Positions 19,478 to 25,969 of a stretch of 64,000 nucleotides of DNA are shown here, piece after piece. The position numbers were made by a program, and so were the translations under genes. The notes beneath the pieces were generated by a model. That model did not search any database, was not told where the DNA came from, and was given only the letters and a program-made list of their open reading frames with translations. The stretch is from Corynebacterium sp. (lineage in GTDB: Bacteria > Actinomycetota > Actinomycetes > Mycobacteriales > Mycobacteriaceae): contig JAUMZY010000007.1 in NCBI GenBank assembly GCA_030527885.1, positions 1 to 64,000 of the forward strand, in the 5' to 3' direction. Every line of letters starts with the position of its first letter. Positions within the stretch are counted from its first letter, which is position 1.

Positions 19478-20038
19478 TTGGCAACTATGGATCGATTAGG
19501 ACGCAACTTCGGCCAATTTATAAAATTTGGCATGGTCGGAGGTTCCGGCGTCTTCGTTAACCTCATTGTGGTCTATTTGAGCAAAAAAATTGCCGGATGG
19601 TGCTTTGACCTGCACGAAGATGATATCTTCATGAATCTGTTGGGTACCAGCTTCAATATACGTTGGTACCACATTTTTCTAACCATCGCTTTCCTCATCG
19701 CCAACACCTGGAACTACCAACTCAACCGAATGTGGACCTTTAGGTCCTCCTCAGTGGGTTGGATCAGAGGATTTTTCGCCTTTTTAGCCATTGGTGTCCT
19801 CGCCTTCCTTGTGAACCTAACCGTCACCACGTTATTGATGAACCCCACATCACCCCTAGCTCTGCCCTCGGATATCTTTGATAATTCCACTGGGTTGCGC
19901 ACCAAACTGTACTACGCCACAGCCATTGGTATTTTCGTGTCCATGCCAGTGAACTTCCTCATTAATAAACTCTGGACCTTCCGGAAAGCACCAGCGTCCA
20001 AAGTCATTATCCAGACTGAGCCCACAGTTACCCGGTAA
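19478..20038 (+). CDS. GtrA family membrane protein
   Basis: A 186-residue protein with four membrane helices (about 14-34, 62-82, 92-115, 145-165) and the GtrA pattern: FIKFGMVGGSGVFVN near the start, NTWNYQLNRMWTF in the middle and NFLINKLWTF at the end. GtrA proteins are thought to help move lipid-linked sugars across the membrane for envelope glycosylation. The TTG at 19478 is seven bases after AGGGAG; the ATG at 19487 is too far from it. Two short hairpins lie in the leader (19411-19427 and 19434-19463). Confidence 0.85.
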   Translation: MATMDRLGRNFGQFIKFGMVGGSGVFVNLIVVYLSKKIAGWCFDLHEDDIFMNLLGTSFNIRWYHIFLTIAFLIANTWNYQLNRMWTFRSSSVGWIRGFFAFLAIGVLAFLVNLTVTTLLMNPTSPLALPSDIFDNSTGLRTKLYYATAIGIFVSMPVNFLINKLWTFRKAPASKVIIQTEPTVTR

Positions 20039-20078
20039 CATTAACCGATGAAGCTTGGTTGCTGTTATACTCAACATA

Positions 20079-20147
20079 GGTGAGGCACCCAGAAGCTTGT
20101 TACTTCATTCTCTTTCTCAGAATTCCACAGGCTTCATTATCCTCACC
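20079..20147 (+). promoter_or_regulatory. Structured RNA element, copy 1
   Basis: Outer stem GGTGAGG/CCTCACC (20079-20085 with 20141-20147), inner stem GAAGCTTGT/ACAGGCTTC (20092-20100 with 20127-20135), then a loop starting TACTTC that holds an extra small hairpin ATTCT/AGAAT. It shares fold and loop sequence with copy 2 at 20205. A TATACT sequence at 20066-20071 could be the -10 element of a promoter whose transcript starts at this element. I do not recognise the class. Confidence 0.65.
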
Positions 20148-20177
20148 GTTACTCTTTATATAAAAACTTGACAGTCA

Positions 20178-20205
20178 CAACATTCCAACGCATACTGGAA
20201 TGTTG
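20178..20205. repeat. Inverted repeat over a likely promoter
   Basis: CAACATTCCA (20178-20187) is repeated inverted as TGGAATGTTG (20196-20205) with an eight-base spacer. It fills the space between TTGACA (20168-20173) and reaches past CATACT (20191-20196), a -35/-10 pair with 17-base spacing. The position fits a repressor operator; alternatively it forms an RNA hairpin between the two structured elements. Confidence 0.6.
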
Positions 20206-20260
20206 GCGAGGCCTCAAAAACCTGTTACTTCATGGAACCACAGGTTTTACTATCCTCGTC
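20205..20260 (+). promoter_or_regulatory. Structured RNA element, copy 2
   Basis: Outer stem GGCGAGG/CCTCGTC (20205-20211 with 20254-20260), inner stem AAAACCTGT/ACAGGTTTT (20217-20225 with 20240-20248), loop TACTTCATGGAACC, and CTAT between the inner and outer 3' strands. Compared with copy 1 the base pairs differ but stay paired (T-A to C-G in the outer stem; G-C to A-T in the inner stem), while the loop start TACTTCAT and the linker end TAT are the same. This is what a conserved RNA fold would show. Confidence 0.68.
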
Positions 20261-20274
20261 GCTATAAGTCATAG

Positions 20275-20314
20275 TCGACCGATGCCAACAACGCATCGGT
20301 CGATTTTTATATTT
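20275..20314 (+). terminator. Intrinsic terminator in the leader of the TerD-like gene
   Basis: A perfect 11-bp stem, TCGACCGATGC/GCATCGGTCGA with a seven-base loop (20286-20292), is followed by ATTTTTATATTT. It stands between structured RNA copy 2 and the GGAG ribosome-binding site at 20315-20318, only 15 bases before the ATG at 20329. A terminator in this place implies transcription attenuation of the gene downstream. Confidence 0.85.
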
Positions 20315-20328
20315 GGAGTACAAAAATT

Positions 20329-22386
20329 ATGATTACCCCCGCCATGCTACGCCGCGGCATCATCCCGATGTCCATGAACCTTCAGCACGCCACCCGGGAA
20401 CAAGCTACCACCGCAGCCGCCGAACTGGTGGCCTTAGGTTTTGTTGCCAACCCTACGGAATTACAGCAGCTCTCGCCCGCAGGCCTTAAGAATCTGCTCA
20501 TGCAAGCCGCAATTGTTGTGGGCGCAGATCGCACCTGGCGGCCCATGTTTTCCGGATTCCCTAAACAAGTGATGAAGATGTCGGACATGGATATTTTGGT
20601 AAAACAGCTCATGCATTACTACACCTACGGTACCTGGTGGCCCAACGTCACCGAGGCTTTTGCTCGCACCAAATTGAAAAAAACCGATTGGAGCCGCAAC
20701 TACCAAAAACTCACACTCACCAAGCTCACCCCAGAAATGGTCAGCACTGAGTGGAACAAAGCCGTGGCATTGAGCCCCACCGATCAGCAATTTGCCATAG
20801 ACATTGCACGTGCACTCAACCTGAACGTGCCAGAACTCATGGCGCGCACCACTTTCCACAACGGCGAAAACTTTGCCGTAGCACTGTGCACCATGACTGA
20901 TCCCACCGAAATCCTTGACACTGGGCTACAGTATGCACGCAATGCCACTTACGTGTTGCGCACCATCCTTGCTGCCTACTGCAAGGACCGCACCCGGGCC
21001 GTTGACTTGATGTGCCACCGCTACCTGCCTGTGAATATGCGCAGCATTCCCCGGGCTAGTCGGCGCGCCATCATTCAGGCATTAGCGCGGTTTAATGACC
21101 AAACCAACCTGGATTTACTTGTACACCATCGGGTGATCTGGCGTCGGGCATTGCGACCAGTGCATCCTTACGAGCTGGCGGAGGCTCAGAAAGTGGCGCC
21201 GCACCTGGACATCATTTTCGGAAGGTCACAACACCGGACATTCAACGCGCAGGTGGAACTAGCATTGCGCAATCATGATGTGTTTACCGCGATGCAACTT
21301 CTGTCCACCAATCCGGGCAACCTGGTTCGGCGTATTGATCACTTGATGCGGCTAGTGGACAGTAGTGGCGAGGAGCAGGAGAAAGCCGCCCTGATTGCCG
21401 CTATCAGTGATGCTGCCCCGCAGGTGCGGCTTACCACGCTCATTTCGTGTTACAACGGCATTAGCAATAGGTTGGCTAGCACCAAGGTGTACCGTCTGCG
21501 GAGCCGTAATGTGCTCAGGATCTCAGAAACCACCCCGGTGGATTCAGCGCTGAAGCAGGAGGTGCTAGAGACCCTAGAAACCGCCATGATGATGGTGCTC
21601 ATGGCTGCACCCGCACCCACTGAACCCGTGAAAGTGGGATCGATGATACCGGTGGAATTGGTGCAACGGACGGCGTCGAAAAGCAAAATTGCGCTAGCCC
21701 GCGGCCAGCGCCTCAAGCTTAACCAGGGTGATGTGGTGCGGCTTTTTGTGCACTGGTACGGCCACGACGTTGATCTGGGCGTGTGCTTTACCGATGAGGG
21801 TTTGCAAGAGCAACTGGGCTACCTGGATTACACTAACCTGTCTGCCAACCAGTGGAAGAAAGTCGTGGTACATTCCGGTGATATCACGTATGCACCGCAG
21901 CCGGAGGGGGCGTGCGAATTTATTGATATTCACAGTAAATTGCACACTAAAATGCCCAAGGTGCGCTACGCCATTCCGCAGCTCATCAGTTATTCCGGTC
22001 TGTGTTTCCGAGATATTGACAACATTGCCGGGGTTATGGTGCGCAGCTCCGGCATGGCCGGAAAAGTGTTCGAACCACGCACTGTGGAAACTGCCACGTC
22101 TGTTCTGGTGCAATCCACGTCGTCGATCCCTTTTATCATGGACCTGAAAACCAATGAGTTGATCTGGATGGATACATCATTGGGAACCCAGTCGGGCCTG
22201 TTTAATGCTGGCGATTCTGCCGGGGTGCACATGGTTCGCGCGGAACTCGAAGCTCTTTCGAACATGATGACGAACGGGAAGCTATTATCTTTGTGGGCTG
22301 AAGCACACGACATGCCTACCGTTCCTAGCGTCGGGGATGAAGCCGCCACCCGCGCACAGGTGGCAGAACTCTTGTCTATTGATTAG
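20329..22386 (+). CDS. TerD-domain protein of the MXAN_6230/SCO0854-like family
   Basis: A 685-residue soluble protein. The N-terminus ([12 protein letters not shown]..., then AAELVALGF and [18 protein letters not shown]) follows a family often annotated as RING-domain MXAN_6230/SCO0854 proteins, but the zinc-binding cysteines of that RING are not visible here. Residues about 455-660 look TerD-like, with [18 protein letters not shown]. TerD proteins bind calcium and belong to tellurite and chemical stress systems; no other ter genes are present. Expression is probably set by the leader with two RNA elements and a terminator. The stop overlaps the opposing dapD stop by four bases. Confidence 0.72.
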
Positions 22387-23357
22387 TTATTGGCGTGCAG
22401 GTCATCGTTGAGTGCCACGGCGGCGGAATTCCACCCAGTGGCCTCCACCGCACCTGTGATGGAATTGCGCCGGTACAGGACATTATTAGCGCCCGATAGC
22501 TGCAGGGCCTTGACCGTATCGCCATCGTTGAGCTGCAACGCCTTGGCCACATTGCCGCGCACCGTGATCTTGGTGCCGGCGGTCACATACAAACCGGCCT
22601 CAATCACGCAATCATCGCCCAGCGAAATACCGCAACCCGCATTGGCACCCAAGAGGCAGCGCTTGCCCAAGGAAATCACTTCCTTGCCGCCGCCGGACAG
22701 CGTGCCCATGATGGAAGCGCCGCCGCCAATGTCCGTGCCGTCACCAACAACCACACCAGCGGAAATGCGGCCCTCCACCATGGAGCTGCCCAATGTGCCG
22801 GCGTTGAAGTTCACGAACCCCTCATGCATCACCGTGGTGCCTTCCGCCAGGTAGGCGCCCAACCGCACGCGGTCGGCATCACCAATGCGCACCCCAGTGG
22901 GCACAACATAATCCACCATGCGGGGGAATTTATCCACCCCGTACACCGCAACTGGGCCGCGTTGTTGCAACTTAGCGCGCGTGATCTCAAAATTAGCCGG
23001 TAGGCACGGCCCAAAGTTCGTCCACACCACATTGGCCAGCAACCCAAACACGCCATCAAGATTCAGGCCGTGTGGCTGAACCAACCGGTGGGACAAGAGG
23101 TGCAGCCGCAGGTAGGCGTCGTATGCGTCGACGGGGGCGTCGTCAAGCGAAGCAATCTGGGTGCGCACTGGCACCTGCTTTACATCCCGATCCGCATCAA
23201 CCGTAGCCGACAGGTGCAGATCATTATTGGCATCATCAAGCAACTCTGTGCCGGCGGTCACCGGGGTTTCCCCCAGCTCTGGATTGGGGTACCACACAGC
23301 AAGCACAGTACCGTCAGAATGAATAGTGGCAAGGCCAATAGAAAAAGCAGAAGTCAT
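22383..23357 (-). CDS. dapD: Tetrahydrodipicolinate N-succinyltransferase DapD
   Basis: A 324-residue enzyme with the left-handed beta-helix of actinobacterial DapD. Key segments are present: [28 protein letters not shown] with the catalytic Glu, the glycine-rich [14 protein letters not shown] loop and [17 protein letters not shown]. It transfers succinyl from succinyl-CoA to tetrahydrodipicolinate in lysine/DAP synthesis. The start at 23357 (MTSAFSIGL) gives the usual length; the longer frame runs over the aroP end. A diverged paralogue lies at 24950 on the same strand. Confidence 0.94.
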
Positions 23358-23373
23358 GAAAAATGAGTCTACT

Positions 23374-24759
23374 TTACTTTTCAATGTCACGGTCAGCTGG
23401 ATGGAACCGTTTCGCCACAAAACTCATGGCCACTGTGAACGCAAACACCACCGCCACAGAAATAATCTGCGCCCGCGAAGCATCATCCCACAGCATCAAC
23501 AACACTAAGATCGTCAACAAAACCAAACAAATGATTGCCGGCCATGGATACCCAGGCATGCGCACCGTGGTGATCTCATTCTTACGCACCAACTCCGGAT
23601 GCAACTTCAGCCACGACACCACAATCATTATCCACAACACCAGCAGGCAACCACCCACCGCATTGAGCAAGAATGGCAATAACCCCGGCGGATTCCAATA
23701 CTGTAATCCCACTGATACGAAGGCGAAAAACATGCTGAGCAGCACTGTATTAGTCGGCACACCATATGAATTCGTTTTAGCAAAAACCCGCGGCGCATCT
23801 TGCCGTTTAGCAAACGAATACACTAGCCGCGATGTGCCATAAATCTGCGCATTAAATGCTGATAGCAGCGCCAACACAATGATGCCTTCCATGAAGCCCA
23901 CCACATATGGCAGATGCGCCATACCCAAAATAATGGTGAAGGGTGATTCCGCCGCAGTTTCTGCACCCCCAATGGATTTATACGGCATTAGGAAAATAAT
24001 GATGAGCACTGAACCCAGGTAGAACAACGAAATACGCCAAATCACCGACCGCACTGCAGTAGCAATCGACGATTCTGGATTTTCAGACTCCGCCGCTGCA
24101 ATGGTCACAATTTCAATGCCACCAAAAGCAAACGCCACCGCCAGCAACCCAGCAGCAAACCCCGAAACCCCATTAGGCAAGAAACTTGTTTGGGAAATAT
24201 TACTGATACCAATGAAATCCGTGCCAGGTAACCACCCAAAGATGAGCAGAACACCCACCACCAAGAACAGGATGATCACCGCCACCTTGATGAATGCAAA
24301 CCAGAACTCAAACTCCCCAAAACCCTGCACGTTAGCGAGATTAACCACGGCAAAAAATATCACGCACACCAATGCTGGGATCCACGGTTCAACGTCAAAC
24401 CATTTGCTCATGATGGCAGCCGCCCCAGTCATCTCAACACCCATCACCATGGTGAGCGTGAACCAATACAGCCAACCAATGGTAAATCCAGCCCAATGAC
24501 CATGCGCCTGCTCTGCATAGACAGAGAAGGAACCAGAATTAGGCCGCGCAGCAGCCATTTCCCCCAACATTTGCATGAATAACAGGAAGATAGCACCAGT
24601 GAAAATATAACCAAAAATGACGGTTGGTCCAGCAAGATGAATACCCACACCAGTGGACAGGAACAACCCGGCGCCAATGGCAGAGCCAAGTCCCATCATG
24701 GTGAGATGTCGAGGTTTTAGACCAGTACTTAACGCGGTGGATTTCGGTGATTCGGTCAT
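23374..24759 (-). CDS. aroP: Aromatic amino acid permease AroP
   Basis: A 461-residue transporter of the amino acid-polyamine-organocation superfamily with about twelve helices. The N-terminal signature [16 protein letters not shown] and the [12 protein letters not shown] segment are typical, and the whole closely follows C. glutamicum AroP, which also lies in the dapD-dapE cluster. It imports phenylalanine, tyrosine and tryptophan by proton symport. It reads toward dapD with only 16 bases between its stop and the dapD start, so both may share a transcript. Confidence 0.9.
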
Positions 24760-24949: not shown

Positions 24950-25969
24950 TCAATGCGCGGAGCTGACGCTTTCGGTAGAATTGAAGTTTTCAGTGGGACT
25001 GAGATAGTTGGTGTGATTGGTTGTTGGGGGCTTCTGTGCTAGAAATTGCAAGTCATGATCACTAATGCGGCGTGCTACTGGCTCTACTGAATGTTTTTCG
25101 GCTTTGATTAACCAATCTGATTGCCCATCAATTTCTCCAGCCAAGTGGATTTCTCCTGTGTCCGCAAACAATAGTGGGGTAGTGGGGTCCAACACAATAT
25201 TGTTACCAACATGCACATTATCGCCTAAGTTTAGGCCGATGACTGAGGCTGAAACCCCAAAAGAACAGTTATTGCCCACGTGCATGATGGCGGGTTTCAT
25301 TGATACAAGTGATGCGGAAATTCCAAGGTCAACGTTGGTTCCGATGACAGTTCCAGAGGAGATGCGACCTTCGACCCGCCCTGGCCCTAGGGTGCCGGCA
25401 TTGTGGGACACGAAGCCTTCCCGCATGACACGGGTTCCGGGTGCTAGGTAGGCGCCGAGGCGCACTCGTTCCGCTTCGGTGATTTGCACACCGGAAGGCA
25501 CCACATAGTCCACCATCCTGGGCAGCGGATCGATGCCATAGACATGGATGAGGCCGCGAGACATGAGTGAGGTCCGCATGTGTTCGAAGTTATCTGGCAG
25601 GCAGGGGCCTTTGTTGGTCCACACGGTGACCGTGAGTTGGTCAATTGCCCGGTCCATGTTGATGGTTGCGGGTTTGACGAGTCGATGTGACAAGAGGTGC
25701 AGCCGAAGGTACACATCGTGTGCATTGATAGGCGGTTTTGAGAGGTCTGCGATGGTGGTGTGCACGGCTACTTGTTCTACCATGCGGTCTTCGTCGATCC
25801 TGATGAGGTTGAGAAGTTTGATTGGCAAGTCTTGCGCACCGAGTCGTTCGGTCCCTGAATAGTCGAGGCCATTGGTGACTAATTCTGGGGTGGGAAACCA
25901 TGTGTCTAGTACTGACCCGTCCATTGCGATATTGGCAATACCAATCGCTTGTGCACCGATTATTGTCAT
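24950..25969 (-). CDS. DapD paralogue (DapD2-like succinyltransferase homologue)
   Basis: A 339-residue protein clearly related to DapD: both have the segments [14 protein letters not shown] / [20 protein letters not shown] and [11 protein letters not shown]. The VEGRISSG segment with the catalytic Glu is kept, but the glycine-rich succinyl-CoA loop of DapD is replaced by SLVSMKPAIMH and the [11 protein letters not shown] segment by FGVSASVIGLNL. A hydrophilic tail of about 50 residues is added. C. glutamicum also has a second dapD-like gene here. Whether this copy is active, has another acceptor or serves as a partner subunit cannot be told from sequence. Confidence 0.8.
   Translation of the reverse strand: MTIIGAQAIGIANIAMDGSVLDTWFPTPELVTNGLDYSGTERLGAQDLPIKLLNLIRIDEDRMVEQVAVHTTIADLSKPPINAHDVYLRLHLLSHRLVKPATINMDRAIDQLTVTVWTNKGPCLPDNFEHMRTSLMSRGLIHVYGIDPLPRMVDYVVPSGVQITEAERVRLGAYLAPGTRVMREGFVSHNAGTLGPGRVEGRISSGTVIGTNVDLGISASLVSMKPAIMHVGNNCSFGVSASVIGLNLGDNVHVGNNIVLDPTTPLLFADTGEIHLAGEIDGQSDWLIKAEKHSVEPVARRISDHDLQFLAQKPPTTNHTNYLSPTENFNSTESVSSAH

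Follow-up and report, generated by a model that had tools for sequence, protein, structure and literature searches.

What are the two similar RNA structures that lie one after the other in front of a protein-coding gene of a Corynebacterium species? The window, i.e., the whole stretch of DNA that we analysed, spans 64,000 nucleotides, and the genome to which it belongs is incomplete, with 1.64 Mb and a completeness of 53%. The first-pass annotation had described in it a tandem riboswitch or other attenuator ahead of a TerD-like gene, and much of its description of the layout holds. Two units on the + strand, at 20079-20147 and 20205-20260, adopt a common fold made of two helices, an outer stem of 7 bp and an inner one of 9 bp. 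In unit 1, the outer stem is GGUGAGG/CCUCACC, the inner stem GAAGCUUGU/ACAGGCUUC; unit 2 has the same two-helix fold, with an outer stem GGCGAGG/CCUCGUC. The stem sequences differ between the units and the pairing is kept, the linker 5' of the outer 3' strand ends in UAU in both of them, and both loops open with UACUUCAU. The shared loop start was thus described correctly, but the loops are not identical as had been stated, the apical loop of unit 1 being longer. The folding energy of the 281-nt region is -89.2 kcal/mol, whereas shuffled sequences average -51.4 (z = -7.9; none of 200 shuffles equalled it). Downstream of unit 2, a terminator-like hairpin with a T-rich tail was found by scan and by fold at 20273-20305 (+). 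It has 11 uninterrupted Watson-Crick pairs when counted by eye and 13 according to the tool, and is likely to mark where the small RNA transcript or transcripts end. GGAG and then the ATG (20329) come after it, in the order originally described.

Each unit is also preceded by a -10-like hexamer, 7-8 nt from its start, which supports the earlier suggestion of two transcript starts. The one before unit 1 (TATACT, 20066-20071, +) ends 7 nt 5' of the element, lacks a clear -35, and was read by eye, being absent from the output of the promoter scan. The one before unit 2 belongs to a full putative promoter (TTGACA, 17-nt spacer, CATACT; 20168-20196, +) that scored 10/12 and is one of the three promoter-like sites detected by the scan, where 0.7 were expected; the other two lie elsewhere. 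An inverted repeat, CAACATTCCA...TGGAATGTTG, surrounds the -10 box of this promoter (20178-20205, by eye) and may be an operator; a similar, less perfect repeat was seen by eye around the same box in one relative (G109). As for the genomic context, a GtrA-family gene (19478-20038) lies directly 5' of the element region, and GtrA-like sequence also precedes the homologues of the downstream gene in G109, G118, and G197 (by eye). Two DapD-like genes lie near each other on the - strand (22383-23420 and 24950-25969), and the score of the second with the actinobacterial DapD model is under the curated cut-off.

Is this structure under selection? Ten of the 242 Corynebacterium genomes have a match to the downstream protein, and reading the flanks revealed the same element near most of these genes. 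The exact pattern of the window units is found among these 242 genomes only in their own. In an alignment of 14 units (A1), 94.4% of the cells are paired and 33 are double changes, versus 10.6 in shuffled alignments, and the signal of pairing is lost when partners are shifted by 1-3 columns. The covariance model built from it (R1) finds the element in 8 of the 242 genomes, which are those with close homologues of the protein and the same eight from which the model was made. Tandem pairs like that of the window are present in G109, G118, and G197. We also observed that the genomes G118 (L046) and G197 (L051) contain several paralogues of the downstream gene together with 8 and 5 RNA matches, some of the copies lying away from the direct 5' position. 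A draw of 351 genomes at the level of the family added one match to R1, in another genus (G366), where the element immediately follows a homologue on its 3' side. A second model (R2), made of the corynebacterial elements and this one, matched 31 places with E up to 1 in 44 loci, including Streptomyces, Deinococcus, Vibrio (E 7.8e-5), Niallia (E 0.12), and the Rhodococcus phage Weasels2; at least one of these places looks like chance (27 nt in L148, E 0.34). The 26 R2 matches from outside the genus with E up to 0.02 (alignment A6) are 95.1% paired, with 84 double-change cells versus 24.0 in shuffles. For a larger set of 51 rows, 50 of them distinct (A8), these values are 95.3% and 202 versus 64.0, and none of 500 shuffles reached the observed count. 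Because A6 and A8 follow the structure of the model to which they were fitted, their counts lean towards it. The covariation that the first-pass annotation had called for is therefore present, and its view that the stems change while remaining paired is borne out by the fold and by the compensatory changes in relatives. The two-helix fold is conserved, and the window holds two copies of a selected RNA structure. Unit 1 scores 72.1 bits (E 1.5e-11) with R1 and 64.4 bits with a third model, R3, and unit 2 scores 60.3 and 50.1 bits, respectively, both units being part of the training sets of R1, R2, and R3.

In nine further loci, R2 matched in only two; R3 added three (G782, G686, and G737), and one more was recognised by eye. 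The element was not found in G010, G172, and G866, the first two being Corynebacterium genomes with distant homologues only, where a search extending to 12 kb found none either. Separately, a scan of genome contigs for the exact pattern returned 16 stretches, of which only one (L076, Corynebacterium sp. S30M_Sa_12) has an R1 match; the other 15, as well as 49 viral stretches, have none and were taken as chance.

What does the adjoining gene encode? The open reading frame at 20329-22386 (+) specifies a protein of 685 residues. The earlier label of a TerD-like gene is weakly supported: the protein has no Pfam match, including none to RING domains, and two homologues are annotated as 'TerD family protein'. 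We assign it to the MXAN_6230/SCO0854 family, as a member without the RING insert, and propose that it is the protein partner of the RNA. An alignment headed by the window protein (A3) matches that of 14 RING_SCO0854 homologues with an hhalign probability of 100% (E 1.3e-70, 619 columns), and the NCBIfam model NF041916 (RING_SCO0854) gives it 241 bits, for a cut-off of 600. The predicted structure, of moderate confidence (mean pLDDT 68.5, pTM 0.46, from 5 sequences), consists mostly of helices up to about residue 425 and is rich in beta structure afterwards, which would fit a helical RNA-binding part followed by a TerD-like end. Searches among solved structures returned nothing useful for the window protein, and mostly RING proteins among the best 60 of 95 matches for its relatives. 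PADLOC has no match for two family members, and PHROGs match family members only with families of unknown function. We found no recorded function for the SCO0854 family in NCBIfam, PHROGs, or the open-licence literature, and no report of an RNA linked to it among the literature matches listed from open-licence sources.

The element and the gene are tightly associated. Among 394 genomes of the class, 42 have the RNA according to R3, 44 have the protein, and 40 have both, with 4 encoding only the protein, 2 only the RNA, and 348 neither (Fisher p 1.1e-47). The sensitivity behind these counts is flattered, as the 51 elements used to train R3 came partly from family-gene loci in the same genomes, but this does not explain why there are almost no R3 matches elsewhere in the 394 genomes. 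Fifty-six of the 58 RNA matches lie at most 5 kb from a family gene, and all 56 are on its strand; relative to the matched stretch, 37 are downstream and 19 upstream. Less circular evidence comes from the spread of R2 matches across genera and phyla, from the scarcity of matches elsewhere, and from the count of zero on the opposite strand. The architecture is common beside plasmid, phage, and class-genome homologues, where the loop is mostly entered by CUUCCUUCU. This 9-mer occurs on the strand of the gene in 26 of 29 class loci (those with sequence besides the window's, from 52 protein matches) and on the opposite strand in none of them; the motif CTTCCTTCT was chosen from those same class loci. 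In the 26 loci, it lies 3' of the stop codon in 21, upstream in 2, and inside the longest frame drawn by the script in 3. Two of the remaining three loci have the variant CUUCCUCCU, and in the third (G686) the element is matched by R3. Homologues are present in 26 plasmid and 8 phage records; of the 13 that were examined, 10 have an R2 match, and in the others (L127, L128, and L139) the element was recognised by script or by eye. The search by covariance model proposed at the outset thus recovers the element beside homologues of the downstream gene. Some genomes depart from the rule: G642, G584, G866, and G882 have the protein and no R3 match (in G584 an element was seen by eye); G303, which has only the RNA, retains just 5' of it a remnant of the gene, about 33 residues from its end; and G840 shows no trace of a family gene within 11 kb of its RNA match. 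In two genomes of one genus, G366 and G303, the RNA (L061 1069-1135 and L229 5854-5918) is followed by an elongation-factor-G-like frame (by eye).

These positions bear directly on the initial interpretation of a tandem riboswitch or ligand-sensing attenuator, by which a metabolite or ion would be sensed and the terminator before the gene controlled. The order in the window is what such a device requires, namely structured units in tandem, then a terminator, then a start codon, and a terminator-like hairpin also stands between element and gene in several corynebacterial relatives (by eye). However, the 5'-leader position of the window is the less common one in the class, where 37 of 56 copies are downstream of the gene; for several other corynebacterial copies no terminator is visible between element and gene, and we saw no alternative pairing of the element with the terminator arm (both by eye). 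The association of nearly all copies with one protein family is also unlike that of a metabolite riboswitch. In agreement with the first-pass annotation, which recognised no known riboswitch class, Rfam has no match at gathering thresholds in the window, and the four obtained there at E up to 10 are at chance level and none is a riboswitch. We conclude that the riboswitch reading of the units is probably wrong, and regard ligand sensing as improbable.

A further argument comes from the sequences that precede the elements. Of the 26 elements found beyond the genus, 21 have a TANNNT box whose end lies 5-12 nt 5' of the outer stem, versus 2.2% of random positions, which again speaks against an attenuator within a leader. 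The same strict test is positive in 10 of 24 mostly corynebacterial elements, versus 6.7% in the control, and some other elements have near-variants such as CATACT (by eye). Since the box has a fixed place, transcription likely starts at the outer stem, also for the copies behind the gene. Strand-specific linkage on either side of the gene points to an independent small RNA gene rather than to a 5'-leader sensor, and this is what the element looks like. Another possibility is that the product of the gene binds its own nascent mRNA and sets the balance between termination and read-through, with the downstream copies acting on mRNA stability. The 5' position and the terminator in the window, the strict linkage between element and gene, and the variable copy number would all suit such an autoregulatory leader. 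It accounts poorly for -10-like boxes directly before downstream copies, for an RNA kept behind a gene remnant in G303, and for the tRNA-like inserts described below, which suggest a role in trans. Autoregulation is thus unlikely as the whole explanation, if slightly less so than ligand sensing, and it is compatible, as a second function, with the small RNA acting together with the protein.

The number of copies is also informative. Phage WXIN has an array of five units and the IMG/VR contig L131 one of four, and such arrays in two phage sequences are not what one expects of a riboswitch or attenuator. We noticed by eye no clear promoter between the copies of the phage arrays at L128 3480-3860 (five) and L131 3651-3950 (four), so the units may be cut from a single transcript. 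Repeated units raise the question of type III toxin-antitoxin systems, in which tandem RNA repeats neutralise the protein encoded past a terminator. The layout of ToxIN is promoter, RNA repeats, terminator, and gene, i.e., the order seen in the window. Yet the adjoining protein is long, at 685 residues, and has no match to toxin or nuclease families, many relatives have a single unit placed downstream of the gene, and the units are not the near-identical repeats of such systems. We consider this very improbable, and the least likely of the alternatives.

If the units are small RNA genes, which RNAs do they resemble? Bacterial Y RNAs have a basal stem that binds Rsr and a tRNA-like effector domain (PMC8394870). 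The effector domain engages PNPase, which results in a decay machine for structured RNA (PMC8394870, PMC7790460). Genes for TROVE proteins (Ro60/Rsr) are present in 15 of 118 class genomes, and we looked at 16 TROVE loci for comparison. At least 11 of the 16 have the motif UACUUC 5' of the TROVE gene, mostly just past the inner 5' strand in folded units. These units are often tandem, have ends able to pair, and often contain a T-arm (by eye; some fold uncleanly), and we presume that those beside actinobacterial TROVE genes are Y RNAs. The element linked to the SCO0854 family has the paired 5' and 3' ends of a basal stem in the fold and in alignments A1, A6, and A8, taking the predicted ends of the RNA. 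Among 53 loop-motif candidates from relatives, 9 have a T-arm (at least 4 pairs, UUCRANY loop) past the motif, versus 0.41% of random windows, and one unit of the array of Weasels2 has hairpins resembling a T-arm, an acceptor, and a D-arm, closed by a basal stem.

The two groups of RNA nevertheless differ. R2 has no significant match in the TROVE loci, the best one (E 0.5, L187) falling on a presumed Y RNA. The internal loop GGUGCGAA/GAUCUC, seen by eye in the TROVE-linked RNAs, is absent from the window units. We therefore do not class the element as an Rsr Y RNA, because it has neither a TROVE neighbour nor this internal loop. Rfam is silent on 15 loci of relatives at gathering thresholds, as it is on the window, and relaxed thresholds give only chance-like matches. 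In a control with the 16 TROVE loci and L129, it reports only ordinary tRNAs. Since it also misses the presumed TROVE-linked Y RNAs, its silence is no argument against a Y RNA. Rfam seems to under-cover bacterial Y RNAs, the presumed ones (L174-L188 and L190) being without a gathering score. At the level of the proteins, Pfam TROVE is absent from 16 members of the SCO0854 family (E up to 1) and from another set of 14 (E up to 5), and the comparison of the family with TROVE by hhalign is not significant. Homology between the two had been expected and was not supported with a merged profile of 30 sequences either, whose score of 20.2 was exceeded by 3 of 60 column shuffles (maximum 22.8). The best alignments between them share one collinear segment in two comparisons, which is suggestive only.

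We propose that each unit is a small RNA made from its own promoter that is a Y-RNA-like partner of the SCO0854-family protein, with both expression and binding inferred. We hold this to be quite likely. The RNA would be about 55-70 nt long, and about 100-130 nt in relatives with inserts, and it would start close to where the outer stem begins. The basal stem formed by its ends and the conserved internal loop might serve as the dock for the neighbouring protein, whereas the UACUUC or UCCUUC loop, or the tRNA-like insert in some copies, would face outward as an effector or tether and might recruit or gate another RNA enzyme. By analogy to the Rsr-Y RNA-PNPase machine, a role in RNA handling or decay may be envisaged, and in the window read-through of the terminator could also couple the RNA to the expression of the gene. 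What would be new here is a Y-RNA-like RNA linked to the SCO0854 family and working like a Y RNA. If this partnership is real, the biochemistry of the family becomes testable in terms of RNA binding, tethering of PNPase, and RNA quality control.

A broader proposal, to which we give even chances, is that this is a second, independent ribonucleoprotein of the Ro/Y type, present in Actinobacteria, Deinococcus, Bacillota, Vibrio, and several phages. The RNA, in one to five copies and sometimes mimicking tRNA, would be bound by the SCO0854-family protein, in which the helical part would replace the TROVE ring and the TerD-like C-terminus, with or without a RING, would replace the vWA domain. TROVE and standalone TerD are reported in some phages (PMC7824862). 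If the proposal is correct, Y-type ribonucleoproteins are not confined to TROVE proteins, phages carry arrays of them, and the Ter stress response is linked to RNA quality control or decay.

How does the element compare with known systems? With the Y RNAs that accompany Rsr or Ro60, such as YrlA, it shares a basal stem of paired ends, an inner helix, and a large apical part. With the presumed TROVE-linked Y RNAs it also shares UACUUC, with the same letters at the same place, and tandem copies beside the gene of the partner. A T-arm or tRNA-like insert is found in some relatives' copies, and none was seen in either window unit. The internal loop differs, most relatives having GGC-C[CT][AC][CU]... 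/ ...CUUUCC instead of that of the TROVE-linked RNAs (by eye), and so does the partner, which is TROVE for Y RNAs whereas the neighbour of the window element belongs to the SCO0854 family and has no significant similarity to TROVE. The ToxI RNAs share with the window the tandem structured units, the terminator, and the gene, but here there is no ToxN-like toxin, and the units vary in sequence and in position, on both sides of the gene. Finally, the window protein resembles the NF041916 family along the full length of the profile while falling below its curated cut-off, and it has a gap in place of the RING, which 6 of 14 other members carry as Prok-RING_4.
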